From contig JAHJTC010000004.1 of the NCBI GenBank assembly GCA_018830105.1, positions 186,001-250,000 of the forward strand: a stretch of DNA of 64,000 nucleotides, written 5' to 3'. Both the position numbers and the translations under genes were made by a program. Below are positions 8,113-19,220 of this stretch, piece by piece. The DNA comes from Bacteroidota bacterium. GTDB taxonomy: Bacteria; Bacteroidota; Bacteroidia; Bacteroidales; F082. How positions within the stretch are numbered: position 1 is the first letter of the stretch; each line of letters starts with the position of its first letter. Under the pieces are notes generated by a model that saw only the letters and a list, made by a program, of their open reading frames with translations, was not told where the DNA came from and did not search any database.

Positions 8113-9933
8113 ATGAGAACATTGGTTGTAAGTGGGATTTTATTGCTTTTTATTGTTGTTCAATTGGTGCAGGGAGTAAATGCAAAACACACTATTGATG
8201 GCGATGGAAGCGGTTATTATGCCTATTTAACAACGGTTTTGCGTTTTAAAACGACCGACTTTAAACAGGTCTTTGAATACGAGAAAACACAACGTGGCCT
8301 GGATTATATGGGGCATTATTTCCATGATTACAACGGGAAAACAGTGAATAAATACTACGCCGGAACAGCTGTGTTAATGCTTCCCTTTTACATCTTGGCA
8401 AGTGCCTATTCGAAGTTGGCCAATATGCCCCTCGATGGATATAATATCATTTATCAATATGCTGCCGCATTAGCTGCGGCTTTCTATCTGGCACTTGGCT
8501 TGTTGCTGGTCAATGCGTTGCTGAAAACTTTTGAGATCACAAAACCAGTTCGGCTGCTTACCATTTTGAGCGTGCTTCTTGGCACGAATTTGTTTTATTA
8601 TGCATTTCTGCATCCGGCACATTCGCATGTGTATTCATTTGCAGCGATAGCCGGCTTTGCCTATGCAGCAAGGGTTTTCATGCTGTCGGGGCGGACAAGG
8701 TATTTTTATTTGATGAGCCTGATGCTTGGCATTGTGGGGCTGATTCGTCCTACAAATTTGCTCCTGGTATTGCTGATTCCATTTTTTGCACCGAATTATC
8801 AGCTGGTTAAACAACGAATTACAGAAATAGTGATCCATCCACTCAAAATACTCTTCGCATTGGTGTTTTTTCTGAGTTTTTTTTCTATTCAAATCGGCTT
8901 CAATCTGATACAAACCGGAGAGTTTATTCTTTACACCTATAAAAATGAAGGGTTTCACTTTTTGCAGCCCGCAACTTTTTCTTTTTTGTTCAGTTACCGT
9001 AAAGGCTTATTTGTATACACACCACTGTTGTTGCTTTTGTTTTCAGGACTTTTGCTGCTATATCGCAGATCGCGCTTCCAATTTTATTGGCTATCAGGCT
9101 TTTTAGTTTTGTTGATTTATATATTGTCATCCTGGTGGAACTGGTTTTTTGGTGATAGTTTTGGCATGAGAGCGATGATTGATTACTATCCGATATTTGC
9201 AATTTTACTCGCTTTTGCCTTTAGCGCTTTCCTGAAAATTAGGGCCGGACAAGTATTTTTAACCGTTTTCCTGCTGTTGGTCGTCCCACTGAACCTGGTT
9301 CAGGCCTATCAATATGAAATTGGTATTCTTCACCCGGATTCGATGAGCAAAGAGAAATATTGGCATGTGTTTTTAAAGACAGATTCGCGCTATAAAAATA
9401 TTCTGGGAAGCCAGCCGGAGCCGGTTTTTAAATCACTGGATTCTTACAAACAACAGAATTTCTTTATGGACATGGAATCCAACTCACCGGTGTGGACTAA
9501 TAATAGTATTCGGTTATCGGGCGAGGCCCATTCGGGCATGTATCTTGCACAGATTGACGAAGCATCGTCTTTCAGCCCAACACTCGTTTTAAACAACACA
9601 CAGTTATTTCCCACATTTGGACCGATGTATGTTTCGGCGCACCTGATGTTTCGGGAGTTGAATCCCAATGCCGCTGCAAAGGCCCTGATGGTTTATGCAG
9701 CCACAAACAGAAATAACCAGTTGATATTCTATAAAGTACAGAAATTAAAGCAGTTGCCTGATAATATGACCAACTTGTGGCGCTACGCCGACTTTGGGAT
9801 GAAGGTTCCTGAATGGTCCGACGAAGTAGCTCAGGTTAAGATTTATATCTGGAATCCCGAGCCAACTTCATTTCAATTGGACGATTTTGCAGTCAGTATT
9901 TACTACAAAGACAATATTCAAGATGACGAATGA
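8113..9933 (+). CDS. Polytopic membrane protein, putative GT-C-like glycosyltransferase
   Basis: A 606-residue protein with an N-terminal membrane segment, a periplasmic loop, about ten further hydrophobic helices up to residue 400, and a soluble C-terminal domain (about 430-600) rich in beta strands. The first loop contains DGDGSGYYAYL, which resembles the acidic first-loop motif of lipid-linked GT-C glycosyltransferases. That resemblance and the topology are the only basis for the call; no specific family was recognised. The C-terminal part looks like a jelly-roll or carbohydrate-binding-type domain. The 3' end overlaps the DUF5522 gene by 11 bases, so they are probably co-transcribed. An imperfect promoter box (TAATTTCG) lies at 8085-8092. 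Confidence 0.6.
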   Translation: MRTLVVSGILLLFIVVQLVQGVNAKHTIDGDGSGYYAYLTTVLRFKTTDFKQVFEYEKTQRGLDYMGHYFHDYNGKTVNKYYAGTAVLMLPFYILASAYSKLANMPLDGYNIIYQYAAALAAAFYLALGLLLVNALLKTFEITKPVRLLTILSVLLGTNLFYYAFLHPAHSHVYSFAAIAGFAYAARVFMLSGRTRYFYLMSLMLGIVGLIRPTNLLLVLLIPFFAPNYQLVKQRITEIVIHPLKILFALVFFLSFFSIQIGFNLIQTGEFILYTYKNEGFHFLQPATFSFLFSYRKGLFVYTPLLLLLFSGLLLLYRRSRFQFYWLSGFLVLLIYILSSWWNWFFGDSFGMRAMIDYYPIFAILLAFAFSAFLKIRAGQVFLTVFLLLVVPLNLVQAYQYEIGILHPDSMSKEKYWHVFLKTDSRYKNILGSQPEPVFKSLDSYKQQNFFMDMESNSPVWTNNSIRLSGEAHSGMYLAQIDEASSFSPTLVLNNTQLFPTFGPMYVSAHLMFRELNPNAAAKALMVYAATNRNNQLIFYKVQKLKQLPDNMTNLWRYADFGMKVPEWSDEVAQVKIYIWNPEPTSFQLDDFAVSIYYKDNIQDDE

Positions 9934-13215: not shown

Positions 13216-14430
13216 ATGAAAAGAGTATTATTTTTTATAGCATTAAGTTTAAGTACTGTGCTATTATTTGGCCAGAATTACATTGATGGTACACTGCTGT
13301 ATCATCAAAATCCGGAGTATCCGATTCCAGAGGTTGAAGCAACGCTTTATGATGGATCAGGTAATATTGCCGGAGTAGCAACTACGGATGACAATGGCTA
13401 TTTCGCTTTTGCCGATGTTCCTGATGGTGTATATGAGGTTGGATTTGAAACAACGCTCGAAGGCGGTGATATTGGAATAAATGATGCATTAAATGTATTG
13501 TTTTACATAATCGGCCTCACCGATTTTACGCCGATACAGGTGTTAGCAATGGATGTAACAGCTAACGGACAAGTCAATATGGCTGACTTTAACTTCATTC
13601 TTGTGCAGTATTTTGTGATGGGTCAACCATTTCCTGCCGGCGAGTGGGTGTTTGAAGATGTTGAGGTGAGCACCTTTACCAGAGATGGCGCTACTACCAT
13701 TGGAGGAAGCAGAACCGGAGATTCAGAAGGAGTTTTAGTTCCAACAGGTCGTGATATGGCAAATAGCTATCAAATAGCTGCTGCTGAATACAGCGAAGTT
13801 GTCGTTGGAGACATCATCGAATTGCCTTTGAATTTGAATGGATTCAACCAACAATTTATGGGCTACGGTCTTGTACTTTCTTTTGATCCGGAACTTGTAG
13901 AAGTAATTGATGTTGTTCCAACCGGACAAGATGCACAGTTGCTTATCGAAAGTAACGAAATTAGAATGAGTTGGTTAGATACACAGCTTGATGCCGAAAA
14001 TCTGCCAACTGATAAACTGGCTACTTTTAAGCTTCGGTTGTTAAGTAACGATTTGCCGGAAAATGGGATAATTTTTGAAATTAAACCGCAAAGTCATATC
14101 CTGGACGCAAATGGTAACAAAATGGATTATTTGAGTTTTGAAATGCCCGGCTTAAAACGTGCTGATGTATTCTTAACCAATTCAATTTATCCTAATCCGG
14201 CAGTCAACGAAACCCGGCTTTCTTTTGAACTTAAAGAGGCAGCCGAACTTGAATTACAGCTGTTTAATGCTGGTGGACAGTTAATCACTAAAATGCAATT
14301 TGATGCTGCTGAAGGTCTTCAAACAAAACAAATTTCATTGGCGGGAATTCCTGCCGGCACTTATCAGGTTTTACTCATCGAAATGAAAAACAAACAAATA
14401 ATAGCTAAACACAAACTGCTTATCCAATAG
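13216..14430 (+). CDS. Secreted T9SS cargo with dockerin-like and cohesin-like regions
   Basis: A 404-residue exported protein. It has a signal peptide (residues 1-19, ending LLFG), a carboxypeptidase-regulatory-like beta domain (about 22-80), then a dockerin-like pair of helices with Ca-loop-like segments (about 84-136: GDIGINDALNVL and MDVTANGQVNMADFNFIL). A cohesin-like beta sandwich follows (about 190-315: VVVGDIIELPLNLNG, SFDPELVEVIDVVP), and a C-terminal type IX sorting domain (about 325-404: NSIYPNPAVNETRLSF, GTYQVLLI). T9SS tails direct secretion and surface attachment. Finding dockerin-like and cohesin-like parts in one chain is unusual. The role is unknown; surface assembly or glycan binding is possible. 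Confidence 0.8.
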   Translation: MKRVLFFIALSLSTVLLFGQNYIDGTLLYHQNPEYPIPEVEATLYDGSGNIAGVATTDDNGYFAFADVPDGVYEVGFETTLEGGDIGINDALNVLFYIIGLTDFTPIQVLAMDVTANGQVNMADFNFILVQYFVMGQPFPAGEWVFEDVEVSTFTRDGATTIGGSRTGDSEGVLVPTGRDMANSYQIAAAEYSEVVVGDIIELPLNLNGFNQQFMGYGLVLSFDPELVEVIDVVPTGQDAQLLIESNEIRMSWLDTQLDAENLPTDKLATFKLRLLSNDLPENGIIFEIKPQSHILDANGNKMDYLSFEMPGLKRADVFLTNSIYPNPAVNETRLSFELKEAAELELQLFNAGGQLITKMQFDAAEGLQTKQISLAGIPAGTYQVLLIEMKNKQIIAKHKLLIQ

Positions 14431-14553: not shown

Positions 14554-17500
14554 ATGGGAATGCTTGTGAATTATCGTTTCTTCGTTTTTTTTGTTTTTTT
14601 AGTGCATTGTAGCTATCAATCAGTAGCTTCCAAGCTATTTCAGGCTGATGATAGCTGGAACAGCACTTCCTTAAAAAATAAAGCCCTGCTGTATAGCAAC
14701 GCTTCCAAGCCTGACAGTGCTATCTTGTTTTTTAAAAAGGCTCTTGAGTTATCTGATGATACGGATAGCACCCTTAAAATTATGTTGTTACTTGGTGAAG
14801 AATACAGACTTAGTAGCTACATTGATTTGGCATTAAATATAGTTCATCAGGCAGAAAGAATTTCGGTGGAAAGTGAGTTCACTGATTCAACTATTAATTA
14901 TGAACTGTTGCATTTGAAAGCAAAAATCTTCACAAATAATGGTAAATATTTGGAAGCGCTTCCATTATTTGATTCTGCAATTTCCATGATTGAAGGGATG
15001 TATGGTTCGTTTTCAATAAGATTAATCAAGGTACTTAATTTTAAAGGCATAACCTGTTATTATCTAGGTAATCAGAAGCAAGCCTTAGATAATTACCATA
15101 GAGCATTGCAAATAGCACTTGATGAAGATGTGTTTAATATAGATTTAGCAGACATATATCAAAATATTGCCATTTTGCACTCTTATAAGGGTGAATTTGA
15201 TAGTGCTTTCATTTATTTAACAGAATCAAAAGAAATTCGTGAAAAGTTATTCCCTGATGATGACCCTATAATGAGTGGGTTCTATATCAATTATGGAAGA
15301 ATTTTAAGTATGGTTGGAGATATGAATAATGCATACAGCTATTATAAAAAGGCTGAAAATATTATGAATAAACATGCCATGGACGATGATATTTGGTGGG
15401 GGCATTTACAAGTAAATATTGGTAGTTATTTGCAATTACGTAATGATTTTGAAAAGGCTTTAGTTTATTATTTAAATGCGCACCAAATTTATAAAAGAAT
15501 TTATGAGCCGAGTCACGCATTAAATGTTACTGTTGCTAATAACTTAGCAAATATTTATAATCAATTGGGAAATTTTGAGAAAGCCAGGCAAATCTCTGCG
15601 GAAGCCCTTGAAAAGGCAAAGAGCCCAATAACTAAGGTACAACTTATGAGGGGATTAGCCCGCTCACTGGCAGGGCTTGGCGAAGAAGACCGAGCTGTCT
15701 TTTATTTTCAGCAGGCCATAACGGTATCTTCTAAGGAATTGGGCGATAATCATTTTGAAACAGCCAATTCCCATGTTATTCTGGCAGATTTTTATATGCA
15801 GCATGCTGCATACCGGGATGCTTTTGAACATTATGGGTTTTCAAACCGGATTTTTGAGCAGATTTTTGGAAAAGGCGACACAGAACTTGCGGATGTGCTG
15901 TTAAAACAAGCTATTTGTAAAGTGTATTTAGCTGAATTCGAAGCCGCATTGGAGTTTATTACTGCAGCAGAATCAAATTTATTAATTAATTCATCAAGTG
16001 CTAACACAGATGTTTCAGGTTCTAACAGCTTGATAAATATTCGGTTGGTTGATGTTTATTTTTGGTGGGGCTCGCTTTACAACCAATGGTATGATCATCA
16101 ACCTGATCAGGAAAATTTGTTAAAAAGTATGGCTTACTTTGATAAAGCCGCCATACTTTTTGATCAGATCGGACTTTTTATCACCGATGAAAGCAGAATG
16201 ATATTAAATAAAGACGTGCGCTCAAAGCTTTATGAAGCAATCGTTGTGGCTGAAAAATTGCATAAAATTACTGAAGAAGATGAATACGTGGATAAGGCTT
16301 TTTATTATGCCGAGAAAAGCAGGGCATCAGTTTTGCTTTCCTCGATCAGAAAGTCGGAAGCCATGCAACTTTCCGGAATTAATGATTCAATTGCGAATAG
16401 AGAATTTGCGTTGCGCGAAGACCTGTCACTTATTCAAAAGCTAATTTATGAAGAGCAGCAGAAGAGTTTTCCCAATAATTTTCGGGTAGCTTTTCTTGAA
16501 AAAAGACAGTTGCAACTCATGCAGGATATCGATCAGCTGGTAACTTTTATTCAAGCAAATTATTCCGATTACAACAGGCTTGCTTTTAATACAGATGTGC
16601 TGTCACTTCCTGATATTCAGCAAAATTTGCAGGCCAACGAAACAATGATTGCCTATGTTTTGGGAGATGAGGAAGCTTATGCAATTGTCGCAGATCAGGA
16701 CGAAAAACATTTGGTAAAATTAATAAGTTCAGATACAATTTTACAGTTGACCGATGGGCTGCTCAAGCAACTCCAAACGGATTTTTCGCAGCATTCTGGT
16801 GCTGATTTCATGGCATATAAACATAGTGCACACAACTTGTACAATGCGCTACTGGCTGATTTAATTCCGTTTATCCATCATAAAAAACTTGTTGTTATTC
16901 CTGATGGCAGATTGGGATACTTACCCTTCGAGCTGTTGATTGTAAATAATGGTAAAGAACAGGGACGAATTGATTACCGGTCGCTTGATTACCTGATTTA
17001 TGATTATGCTATATCTTATTTATACTCCGCTACCTTAGGTTTCGACAAGGTTACCGAAAAAAGATCAGGAAACGGAAAATTATTGGCTATGGTGCCTGAT
17101 TATAGCAATTTCAAAACTGTTAAAAGGGAAGGCAACCAAAGTTTTGAACTTAGCGAACTGCCTTTTGCACAAACAGAATCAGAGGCGGTTTTGAAAAAAA
17201 TAGACGGAACCTTAGCAATGGGAGAGGAGGCGACTAAAACCCGCTTTTTGAAAGATGCAAGTGCTTATAGTGTTTTGCATTTGGCCATGCATACTGTTAT
17301 TGATGACGAAAACCCCATGTATTCAAGACTTATTTTTCAACAAATTGGAGATAGTCTTGATTATTATTCTTTGGGAACGTATGAATTGTTTGGTTTGCGA
17401 CTAAACGCCTCCATGGCTGTTTTAAGCGCATGCAATACCGGTTCTGGTAAATTGCGTCAGGGCGAAGGTATAATGAGTCTAACGCGTGGCTTTATCCATT

Positions 17501-17823
17501 CAGGGGTGCCTTCGATCGTTATGACGAATTGGGAAGTTCATGATCAAACCGGAGCATGGCTTATGGAGCGCTTTTATGAGTATTTAAGTCAGGGCATGGA
17601 AAAAGACATGGCCATGCAAAAAGCAAAAATTGAATTCCTGCAACAGGCAAATCAACTTAAAGCACACCCTTATTTCTGGGCTTCTTATGTTATAATTGGA
17701 GATACAGAGCCACTTAGCCTCAGTGGGTCAAATCGTTATATGATTTTATTCCTGTCGGCTTTTATCCTTGTGATGGTGGTTGTTTTTCTGGTTTTTAGAA
17801 AACAGTCTAAAAAAAGGACATAA
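14554..17823 (+). CDS. TPR-CHAT caspase-like protease-family protein, exported, membrane-anchored
   Basis: A 1089-residue protein with an N-terminal signal-like hydrophobic segment, about 12 TPR repeats (roughly 45-470), a helical linker, and a C-terminal CHAT (caspase HetF-associated with TPRs) domain (about 740-1050). The predicted catalytic dyad is His913 (LHLAMHTVI) and Cys960 (LSACNTG), followed by GEGIMSLTRGFIHSGVPSIV. A single membrane helix (about 1062-1081) ends in a Lys/Arg-rich tail. If the signal is cleaved, the CHAT domain would lie in the periplasm. Known CHAT proteins are cysteine proteases with mostly unknown targets. The gene is convergent with a sigma factor/TPR-membrane protein pair. 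Confidence 0.88.
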   Translation: MGMLVNYRFFVFFVFLVHCSYQSVASKLFQADDSWNSTSLKNKALLYSNASKPDSAILFFKKALELSDDTDSTLKIMLLLGEEYRLSSYIDLALNIVHQAERISVESEFTDSTINYELLHLKAKIFTNNGKYLEALPLFDSAISMIEGMYGSFSIRLIKVLNFKGITCYYLGNQKQALDNYHRALQIALDEDVFNIDLADIYQNIAILHSYKGEFDSAFIYLTESKEIREKLFPDDDPIMSGFYINYGRILSMVGDMNNAYSYYKKAENIMNKHAMDDDIWWGHLQVNIGSYLQLRNDFEKALVYYLNAHQIYKRIYEPSHALNVTVANNLANIYNQLGNFEKARQISAEALEKAKSPITKVQLMRGLARSLAGLGEEDRAVFYFQQAITVSSKELGDNHFETANSHVILADFYMQHAAYRDAFEHYGFSNRIFEQIFGKGDTELADVLLKQAICKVYLAEFEAALEFITAAESNLLINSSSANTDVSGSNSLINIRLVDVYFWWGSLYNQWYDHQPDQENLLKSMAYFDKAAILFDQIGLFITDESRMILNKDVRSKLYEAIVVAEKLHKITEEDEYVDKAFYYAEKSRASVLLSSIRKSEAMQLSGINDSIANREFALREDLSLIQKLIYEEQQKSFPNNFRVAFLEKRQLQLMQDIDQLVTFIQANYSDYNRLAFNTDVLSLPDIQQNLQANETMIAYVLGDEEAYAIVADQDEKHLVKLISSDTILQLTDGLLKQLQTDFSQHSGADFMAYKHSAHNLYNALLADLIPFIHHKKLVVIPDGRLGYLPFELLIVNNGKEQGRIDYRSLDYLIYDYAISYLYSATLGFDKVTEKRSGNGKLLAMVPDYSNFKTVKREGNQSFELSELPFAQTESEAVLKKIDGTLAMGEEATKTRFLKDASAYSVLHLAMHTVIDDENPMYSRLIFQQIGDSLDYYSLGTYELFGLRLNASMAVLSACNTGSGKLRQGEGIMSLTRGFIHSGVPSIVMTNWEVHDQTGAWLMERFYEYLSQGMEKDMAMQKAKIEFLQQANQLKAHPYFWASYVIIGDTEPLSLSGSNRYMILFLSAFILVMVVVFLVFRKQSKKRT

Positions 17824-17825
17824 AA

Positions 17826-17862
17826 AAAGCGCAAGTAAAAGCTCCCCGGATACTTGCGCTTT
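17826..17862. terminator. Terminator between the CHAT gene and the convergent sigma operon
   Basis: AAAGCGCAAGTA (17826-17837) pairs perfectly with TACTTGCGCTTT (17851-17862) across a 13-base loop. It lies immediately after the CHAT stop codon and probably works in both directions. Confidence 0.75.
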
Positions 17863-17902
17863 GAGAGATGTTGATTTTATAGATAATCAACCAAGTTGAA
17901 AG

Positions 17903-18634
17903 TTATTCCACTTTCAATTCATTGAGGATTTTTAATGATTTAGTCCGGTAAACACCGTTATCAGCAGCAATGCGCTTGAAATTTTCAATAGCCTTGCGTC
18001 TTTCACCTGTTCTTAGATAGCATAAGCTGATGTACCATTCTGCCTGATCGATAAACAGGTTGTCGTTGTGTTTCACAATAACATTAAACTTTTCAATGGC
18101 ATCGTCGTATTCTCCAAGCTCCATTAACGACAAGCCGCTGTATAGCCTGCCCATTAAGTTATTAGGGGCTTTGTTAAACATTTCGATGGCGGCATCGTAA
18201 TTGTGCAATTCATACAACTGCATTCCATCCATAACTGGCTGTTCCATTGAATGGCTTGCCGAACGTACATTAAAAGCAGCTGATTCGGTTTGGAAATAGG
18301 CATCATACAGCTTTATATTGCTGTTTTGTGTTTGCATGGTAAGCAATCCAATGCCTGCGGCAACAAGAATAATAAGGCTTGCTGCGACCGCATAAATACG
18401 CCTGAGGGGAAGCTGACGTACTTTTTTTGCTGGATTTTGCGCTTCATGAATTGAATTCAGCGATTCCATAAAAAGTTGCTTTTTATTAGTTTGGGTTTCT
18501 TGATGAATAGCTTTGTAAAGCTCAAATTGCTTTGCAAAGATAGTATCTTCTTCCAATGATTTTCGAAATTCCCAAAGGTCTCCTTCTTCAAGTTCACCTT
18601 TGATATACTTTTCAAATTTTTCAAGGTCTTTCAT
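17903..18634 (-). CDS. TPR-containing membrane protein, probable anti-sigma partner
   Basis: A 243-residue protein when started at MKDLEKFEKY. An upstream ATG at 18664 is possible, but would overlap the sigma gene by 44 instead of 14 bases. The N-terminal ~65 residues are acidic and helical, like the cytoplasmic part of anti-sigma factors (YIKGELEEGDLWEF). One membrane helix follows (AVAASLIILVAAGIGLL, about 80-97), then periplasmic TPR-like repeats (AAIEMFNKAPNN, DAIEKFNVIV, KAIENFKRIA). The overlap with the ECF sigma gene indicates co-translation. I infer that it holds the sigma factor at the membrane and senses envelope signals through its TPR part; there is no direct sequence proof of sigma binding. 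Confidence 0.75.
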   Translation of the reverse strand: MKDLEKFEKYIKGELEEGDLWEFRKSLEEDTIFAKQFELYKAIHQETQTNKKQLFMESLNSIHEAQNPAKKVRQLPLRRIYAVAASLIILVAAGIGLLTMQTQNSNIKLYDAYFQTESAAFNVRSASHSMEQPVMDGMQLYELHNYDAAIEMFNKAPNNLMGRLYSGLSLMELGEYDDAIEKFNVIVKHNDNLFIDQAEWYISLCYLRTGERRKAIENFKRIAADNGVYRTKSLKILNELKVE

Positions 18635-19220
18635 AATCGGATAGATTTTTGTAAGCTGGATCATCCATGATCTCTTTAATTAATTTTCTTAAACATTTTC
18701 GCTTTTGGTTGTAAACAGCCTGAGTAGAGTGGTAGTTCAATTTTTTTGCTATAAGGTCTGTTGCTATCCCCATACTGGAATATTTGATAAGCAATACACA
18801 GGATTTTTTCAATTTCGCGAGATGTTTTCGAGCCAGTTTACTGATTATCTGATTTCTTAACATTTCTCTTAGCATTTCATCGTCTTCCAACGGAAGCGTA
18901 TCCATGTCGAATTGAACAACTGATTGTGCTGATCTCCTATTCTTTGCATGGTCGTACCAAACAAAGCGAATAATCGTAAAAAAGAACGCCTGAAAAGAAA
19001 CTTTCAAAACAAAATCCTGTTTTTGAGAATAATCATAAAACACGCCCATCGCGTCCTGGAAAATATCCCAGGCATCATTCTCCGATCCCTTGCGTTTGTC
19101 AACATAGATACGAACCTTGTCAAAGTAAGTGTCATATACATATTGTAAAATCGCGCGGTCGTGATTTTTTATTCCAAACAGTATTTCATCAGAACTATAT
19201 TTGTCTTCCTCTTCACTCAT
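18621..19220 (-). CDS. ECF-type RNA polymerase sigma factor
   Basis: A 199-residue sigma-70 family protein from ATG 19220; a TTG three codons upstream is less likely. Region 2 runs from about residue 20 to 90 (AILQYVYDTYFDKVRIYV, ENDAWDIFQDAMGVFYDY, FFFTIIRFVWYDHAK), and region 4 from about 130 to 185 (LAKLKKSCVLLIKYSSMGIATDLIAKKLNY, then a recognition helix rich in Arg/Lys). It belongs to the extracytoplasmic-function type by size and lack of regions 1 and 3. It overlaps the next gene by 14 bases. A 19-nt motif in its upstream region also lies upstream of the T9SS cargo gene, suggesting a small local regulon. Confidence 0.9.
   Translation of the reverse strand: MSEEEDKYSSDEILFGIKNHDRAILQYVYDTYFDKVRIYVDKRKGSENDAWDIFQDAMGVFYDYSQKQDFVLKVSFQAFFFTIIRFVWYDHAKNRRSAQSVVQFDMDTLPLEDDEMLREMLRNQIISKLARKHLAKLKKSCVLLIKYSSMGIATDLIAKKLNYHSTQAVYNQKRKCLRKLIKEIMDDPAYKNLSDYERP

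Follow-up and report, generated by a model that had tools for sequence, protein, structure and literature searches.

Within the window (the whole stretch of DNA that was analysed, 64,000 nucleotides), a gene for a TPR-CHAT protease-like protein of 1089 aa (14554..17823, + strand) converges with two genes on the − strand, which encode a membrane anti-sigma factor of 243 aa (17903..18634; start taken as the ATG at 18634) and an ECF-like sigma factor of 199 aa (18621..19220). For the sigma gene the ATG at 19220 was adopted, and the longer TTG start proposed by the program was not needed. The sigma and anti-sigma genes overlap by 14 nt, and the 79 bp between the converging CHAT and anti-sigma genes (17824..17902) contain a strong terminator-like hairpin (z −4.5). 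Upstream of the TPR-CHAT gene and co-directional with it lies a gene for a T9SS-tailed secreted protein with a cohesin domain (13216..14430, + strand). The initial annotation had described an exported TPR-CHAT protein convergent with a sigma factor and a TPR-membrane protein, and the genes, their overlap and their domains were found as it described them. The trio is not a chance arrangement, because it recurs across Bacteroidota. Within the genus, a block conserved just 5' of the sigma start codon, GTGATTAGATTTTG, was seen in the alignment only (L033–L037).

We then describe the TPR-CHAT protein, which carries an N-terminal export signal, a TPR array at about residues 37–680, a CHAT domain at about 690–1050 and a C-terminal membrane helix with a K/R tail (residues 1059–1088). 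The Pfam CHAT model (PF12770) matched residues 758–1050 at 8e-55, and its score of 186.7 bits against a cut-off of 24, together with a His/Cys dyad, places the domain in this family; several TPR models matched the protein as well. The predicted catalytic residues are located at exactly the positions named in the initial annotation, His913 (codon 17290..17292, + strand) and Cys960 (codon 17431..17433, + strand), and both are kept in all linked CHATs whose sequence extends over these positions. One CHAT gene (L060, 9709–12525) stops before the catalytic Cys near a contig end, and the anti-sigma at that locus has Met at position 124. The structure model of the TPR-CHAT protein matched Csx29 (Z 26.9), residues 293–991 of DdvA (Z 22.1) and, as the closest protease-domain fold, the protease domain of separase (Z 25.2 over 318 residues). 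When the PDB was queried with the CHAT domain, one sequence alone returned nothing, whereas a profile did find matches; the profile of the whole protein was swamped by TPR matches. For this protein PADLOC returned nothing beyond generic TPR matches. No sigma gene of the same group adjoins the second CHAT gene of the genome (contig C29).

The residues that would form the S1 pocket were assigned by secondary structure and fold position, in analogy with gingipain Asp163, MALT1 Asp365 and separase. Separase cleaves after Arg, and in a model acidic S1 residues hold its P1 Arg; gingipain and MALT1 hold the P1 Arg via an Asp in helix α1, to which the separase model adds an Asp near the start of helix α4 (PMC4626109). 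The likely equivalents in the TPR-CHAT protein are Glu875 (codon 17176..17178, + strand), where the CHAT helix 872–882 begins, and Asp997 (codon 17542..17544, + strand), in a W-x-V-x-D motif before helix 999–1012. Glu875 was found in the linked CHATs save three clades. Both residues also occur in many CHATs that have no anti-sigma nearby, which marks the pocket as a trait of the family.

We further examined the topology of the linked CHATs. Counted by hydropathy and not by a trained predictor, an N-terminal hydrophobic segment was present in 124 of the 131 complete linked CHATs, a C-terminal membrane helix in 114 and a net positive tail after this helix in 112. A periplasmic location of the CHAT domain is supported by these conserved topology signals. 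The N-terminal signal and C-terminal helix noted earlier for this protein were both predicted here as well, and the suggestion that the protease-like domain faces the periplasm stands as a prediction. Such a place is less unusual for a caspase-like enzyme than was remarked: gingipains are clan-CD proteases outside the cytoplasm, and DdvA is another example. The CHATs of one family found near TPR anti-sigmas (f39; L249–L269) carry no C-terminal membrane helix and therefore would be soluble periplasmic proteins.

The sigma protein scored 19.7 bits against Sigma70_r2, under the Pfam cut-off of 24. Its family profile matched the solved structures of SigW at 4e-10 (over residues 12–181) and of E. 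coli sigma-E at 6e-8. Among the sigma relatives, 19 of 24 matched Sigma70_r2 at E 0.01, and region 4 was matched by only one. By these profile comparisons the protein is probably an ECF-type sigma factor, although a divergent and weak member. Cysteines 141 and 176 are invariant among the 24 sigmas of alignment A1 (reference 18621–19220), at identities down to 18%.

Hydropathy, alignment and the structure model all predicted that the anti-sigma spans the membrane once and has a periplasmic C-terminal domain. Its regions are a cytoplasmic helical N-domain, a membrane helix at about residues 82–103 and periplasmic TPRs at 132–242; in the model, helices occupy residues 2–65, a long helix (78–113) spans the membrane and the TPRs begin at 132. 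Between the membrane helix and the TPRs the model shows a low-confidence loop at about residues 121–131. This linker, variable in length and just outside the membrane, holds Arg124 (codon 18263..18265, − strand), the predicted P1 residue of an R↓S site. In alignment A4 of 47 anti-sigmas, with a mean column identity of 28%, Arg124 is the sole invariant residue (47/47), and it is conserved in 65 of 69 distinct anti-sigma proteins. The residue that follows is small in 131 of 142 cases (Ser 69, Gly 49, Ala 13). Arg124 with its small neighbour looks like a P1 cleavage site. A weak PADLOC match of the anti-sigma to Csx19 (E 0.018) was read as chance.

The initial annotation had called for a survey of co-occurrence across Bacteroidota, and the outcome was strongly positive, in several gene layouts. 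Judged by its close relatives among named genomes, which are MAGs of that order, the genome studied here falls in Bacteroidales. Among 41 relatives, the sigma was found in 24, the anti-sigma in 29 and a related TPR-CHAT in 24; in their gene maps the trio adjoins, mostly convergent, with divergent and co-directional arrangements elsewhere. The sigma alignment was scanned against 84,980 species genomes and returned 80 loci, from Bacteroidales, Saprospiraceae, Chitinophagaceae, Sphingobacteria and Aquimarina, among others. A CHAT gene lay within 8 kb at 35 of 43 loci with a TPR-type anti-sigma, compared with 5 of 28 loci of the same sigma group that have only a partial anti-sigma match (Fisher 1e-7). 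The first 35 linked loci comprised 20 convergent, 14 divergent and 1 co-directional arrangement; a layout that varies around a constant partner points to function and not to frozen synteny. An out-of-sample even draw of 198 Bacteroidota genomes gave a linked CHAT at 31 of 40 loci. Overall, a CHAT gene was located within about 9 kb in 131 of 164 non-redundant TPR-anti-sigma loci. At the other 33 no CHAT was nearby, and in 23 of these the anti-sigma keeps its Arg; two of them have a CHAT elsewhere in the genome (G018 and G020).

We rejected the idea that a CHAT invariably accompanies the anti-sigmas of this sigma group, as trypsin-fused and C39-transporter variants exist. At Sphingobacteria/Chitinophaga-type loci (L106, L113, L117, L119, L120, L139 and others; about 8500–9700), a related sigma is followed by a trypsin-fused anti-sigma-like protein. 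These proteins carry a periplasmic Trypsin_2 domain (matched at 2e-25 and 2e-27 in the two proteins that were checked) and keep the His, Asp and GNSGGP motifs, usually with no CHAT; judged by these motifs, each is a predicted serine-protease counterpart in one polypeptide. At another locus (L046, 9256–11439) a Peptidase_C39 ABC exporter adjoins a sigma of the same group, and similar-sized genes (728–731 aa, as in L046) stand beside the sigma at L050, L086, L104, L105 and L108. Arg124 is lost in the anti-sigmas of L046 and L050.

The T9SS-tailed protein (cohesin domain, T9SS C-terminal sorting tail, and a dockerin match in relatives) represents a fourth gene, often present in Bacteroidales-type modules, that the earlier three-gene description did not include. 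Its homologues adjoin the CHAT in convergent and divergent Bacteroidales modules and also stand beside CHATs whose stretch of sequence carries no sigma gene. Across the phylum it lies directly upstream of the CHAT in 17 of 137 linked cases, and therefore is a lineage-specific partner and not part of the core.

We next compared Glu875 of the CHAT with Arg124 of the anti-sigma locus by locus. Both were present at 115 loci and neither at 11; Glu without an aligned Arg occurred at 5 loci and Arg without Glu at none (Fisher 1.4e-12, not phylogeny-corrected). The five loci with Glu and no aligned Arg comprised one Lys, three Arg residues 2–3 positions off and one degenerate CHAT. The eleven loci lacking both fall into three clades of the CHAT tree. 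In the first, the anti-sigma carries DPGL...M↓S and Glu875 is changed to Ala or Leu; in the second, confined to one genus, Lys lies at or near the Arg124 position and Glu875 is changed to Met, Val or Ile; in the third, Ser or Ala replaces Glu875. Asp997 is changed to Glu at 8 of these 11 loci. On the tree there are three Glu losses, each on the same stem as an Arg loss. A random placement of five Arg changes, weighted by branch length, struck all three stems with a probability of about 5e-6; the three near misses (L230, L280 and L302, with Arg 2–3 residues from the aligned position) were scored as Arg by eye in this test, and treating them as losses gave about 3e-5. The co-variation is partly post hoc, because it was noticed in the second sample and then widened by the third, and the treekit paired sign test is unable to reach 0.05 because there are only three independent switches. 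The co-variation suggests that the protease cuts the anti-sigma outside the cytoplasm at the conserved Arg. The earlier proposal, that the periplasmic CHAT protein cleaves or senses something that releases the sigma factor, is well supported at the sequence level; the conservation of Arg124 and the parallel changes in the predicted S1 pocket speak for a protease–substrate link.

Taken together, these results make it probable that the module is a proteolytic envelope-signalling switch, in which a TPR-CHAT cut behind Arg124 and a subsequent site-2 step release the sigma factor from its anti-sigma. The anti-sigma N-terminal domain would keep the sigma factor at the inner membrane. The exported, membrane-anchored TPR-CHAT protein would be a separase-like cysteine protease, whose long TPR array would detect an envelope signal and dock on the periplasmic TPRs of the anti-sigma. 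Once activated, it would make the site-1 cut on the C-terminal side of Arg124, about 20 residues out from the membrane helix. The remaining stub would become the substrate of a site-2 protease, and the sigma factor would then be released; the genome encodes one M50 site-2 protease, and M50 was universal in the controls. In this scheme we infer catalysis, docking, the site-2 step, sigma release and the signal.

It appears unlikely to us that the CHAT works in this pathway without cutting the anti-sigma, in which case TPR–TPR binding would free the sigma through a change of conformation and Arg124 would serve structure or docking. Both partners do carry TPRs, and binding and cutting are separable in Csx29, because it binds Csx30 with or without protease activation (PMC10028731). 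However, the linked CHAT copies keep the dyad, and Arg124 lies outside the TPRs, in a flexible linker, and co-varies with a predicted S1-pocket residue. Slightly less likely still is that the TPR-CHAT protein and the upstream secreted protein are mere members of the sigma regulon encoded near the sigma gene and act on an unrelated envelope substrate. ECF sigmas often control neighbouring genes, and the CHAT pairs with the secreted protein even without a sigma on the same stretch (L161 and L164), but this reading leaves the near-invariant Arg and its co-variation with Glu875 unexplained. Cleavage in the cytoplasm of the anti-sigma N-domain or of the sigma, modelled on the related CRISPR TPR-CHAT Csx29, which acts on a sigma inhibitor, serves intracellular crRNA-guided complexes and is presumed to cleave in the cytoplasm, is hardly credible given the conserved export signal, the C-terminal helix with its positive tail and the co-varying Arg on the periplasmic side of the anti-sigma.

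The proposed cleavage of the anti-sigma after Arg124 was compared with known systems. In Craspase, Csx29 (a TPR-CHAT) cleaves the inhibitor Csx30 and relieves inhibition of CASP-sigma (PMC10028731), at sites (A↓S, L↓D, M↓K) that are not conserved (PMC11106740). Craspase, of type III-E CRISPR, and the present module both place a TPR-CHAT beside a sigma inhibitor and an ECF-type sigma. In contrast to Craspase, which is activated by Cas7-11 and target RNA and whose TPR-CHAT has neither export signal nor anchor, the protein here conserves both and is paired with a conserved Arg site; the aligned Csx29 lacks an Asp at the D997 position. CalpL in the CalpL/CalpT/CalpS system also cleaves an anti-sigma and frees an ECF sigma (PMC11417357), but it is a Lon protease activated by cA4. 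Separase is eukaryotic and has cohesin as its substrate. In ECF54, CHAT proteins are conserved near the ECF sigma and proteolysis has been proposed, but this group was described without an anti-sigma, with an actinobacterium as the example (PMC8999054), whereas here the anti-sigma gene overlaps the sigma gene. In Myxococcus xanthus, DdvS is active once DdvA is inactivated (PMC4374960). The PDB entry titled 'transmembrane anti-sigma factor DdvA' names its chain a CHAT domain-containing protein, and by analogy DdvA would in effect be a fused form of the present anti-sigma and TPR-CHAT; it combines anti-sigma and CHAT in one polypeptide, whereas here there are two genes, and the predicted cut falls in the stretch from the membrane to the TPRs. 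DegS is a PDZ serine protease. In the DegS–RseA–RseP pathway, a periplasmic site-1 cut of a membrane anti-sigma is followed by a site-2 cut (PMC10028731). As in that pathway, the anti-sigma here is a predicted single-span protein with a periplasmic C-terminal domain and M50 is present, but the linked protease is a clan-CD cysteine CHAT with TPRs and no PDZ-trypsin. The closest mechanistic picture is probably a site-1 cut in a single-span anti-sigma, after which an M50 protease acts.

A wider scenario can be drawn, which as a whole strikes us as improbable. A separase-like periplasmic site-1 pathway would extend across the phylum with P1 and S1 re-specified at least three times, and the T9SS-tailed protein would be the ligand. 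On a stall of type IX secretion this cargo would remain in the periplasm, bind the TPR array and trigger cleavage, and Craspase and DdvA would be offshoots of such envelope systems.

In the literature that we searched, which did not include the ECF re-classification paper, we found no Bacteroidota example of a TPR anti-sigma whose neighbour is a periplasmic CHAT protein encoded on its own. Related logic is already known from Craspase, CalpL, DegS–RseA and DdvA; what is new here is Arg124 as a candidate cut site and its co-variation with the predicted S1 residue Glu875. For a large and mostly unstudied group of Bacteroidota sigma factors, the module offers a proposed route of activation that specifies both cut site and pocket. 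The changes of Arg to Met and to Lys are natural switches of specificity by which the protease–substrate link can be tested directly. It would place separase and caspase relatives in ordinary envelope signalling, beyond CRISPR defence.
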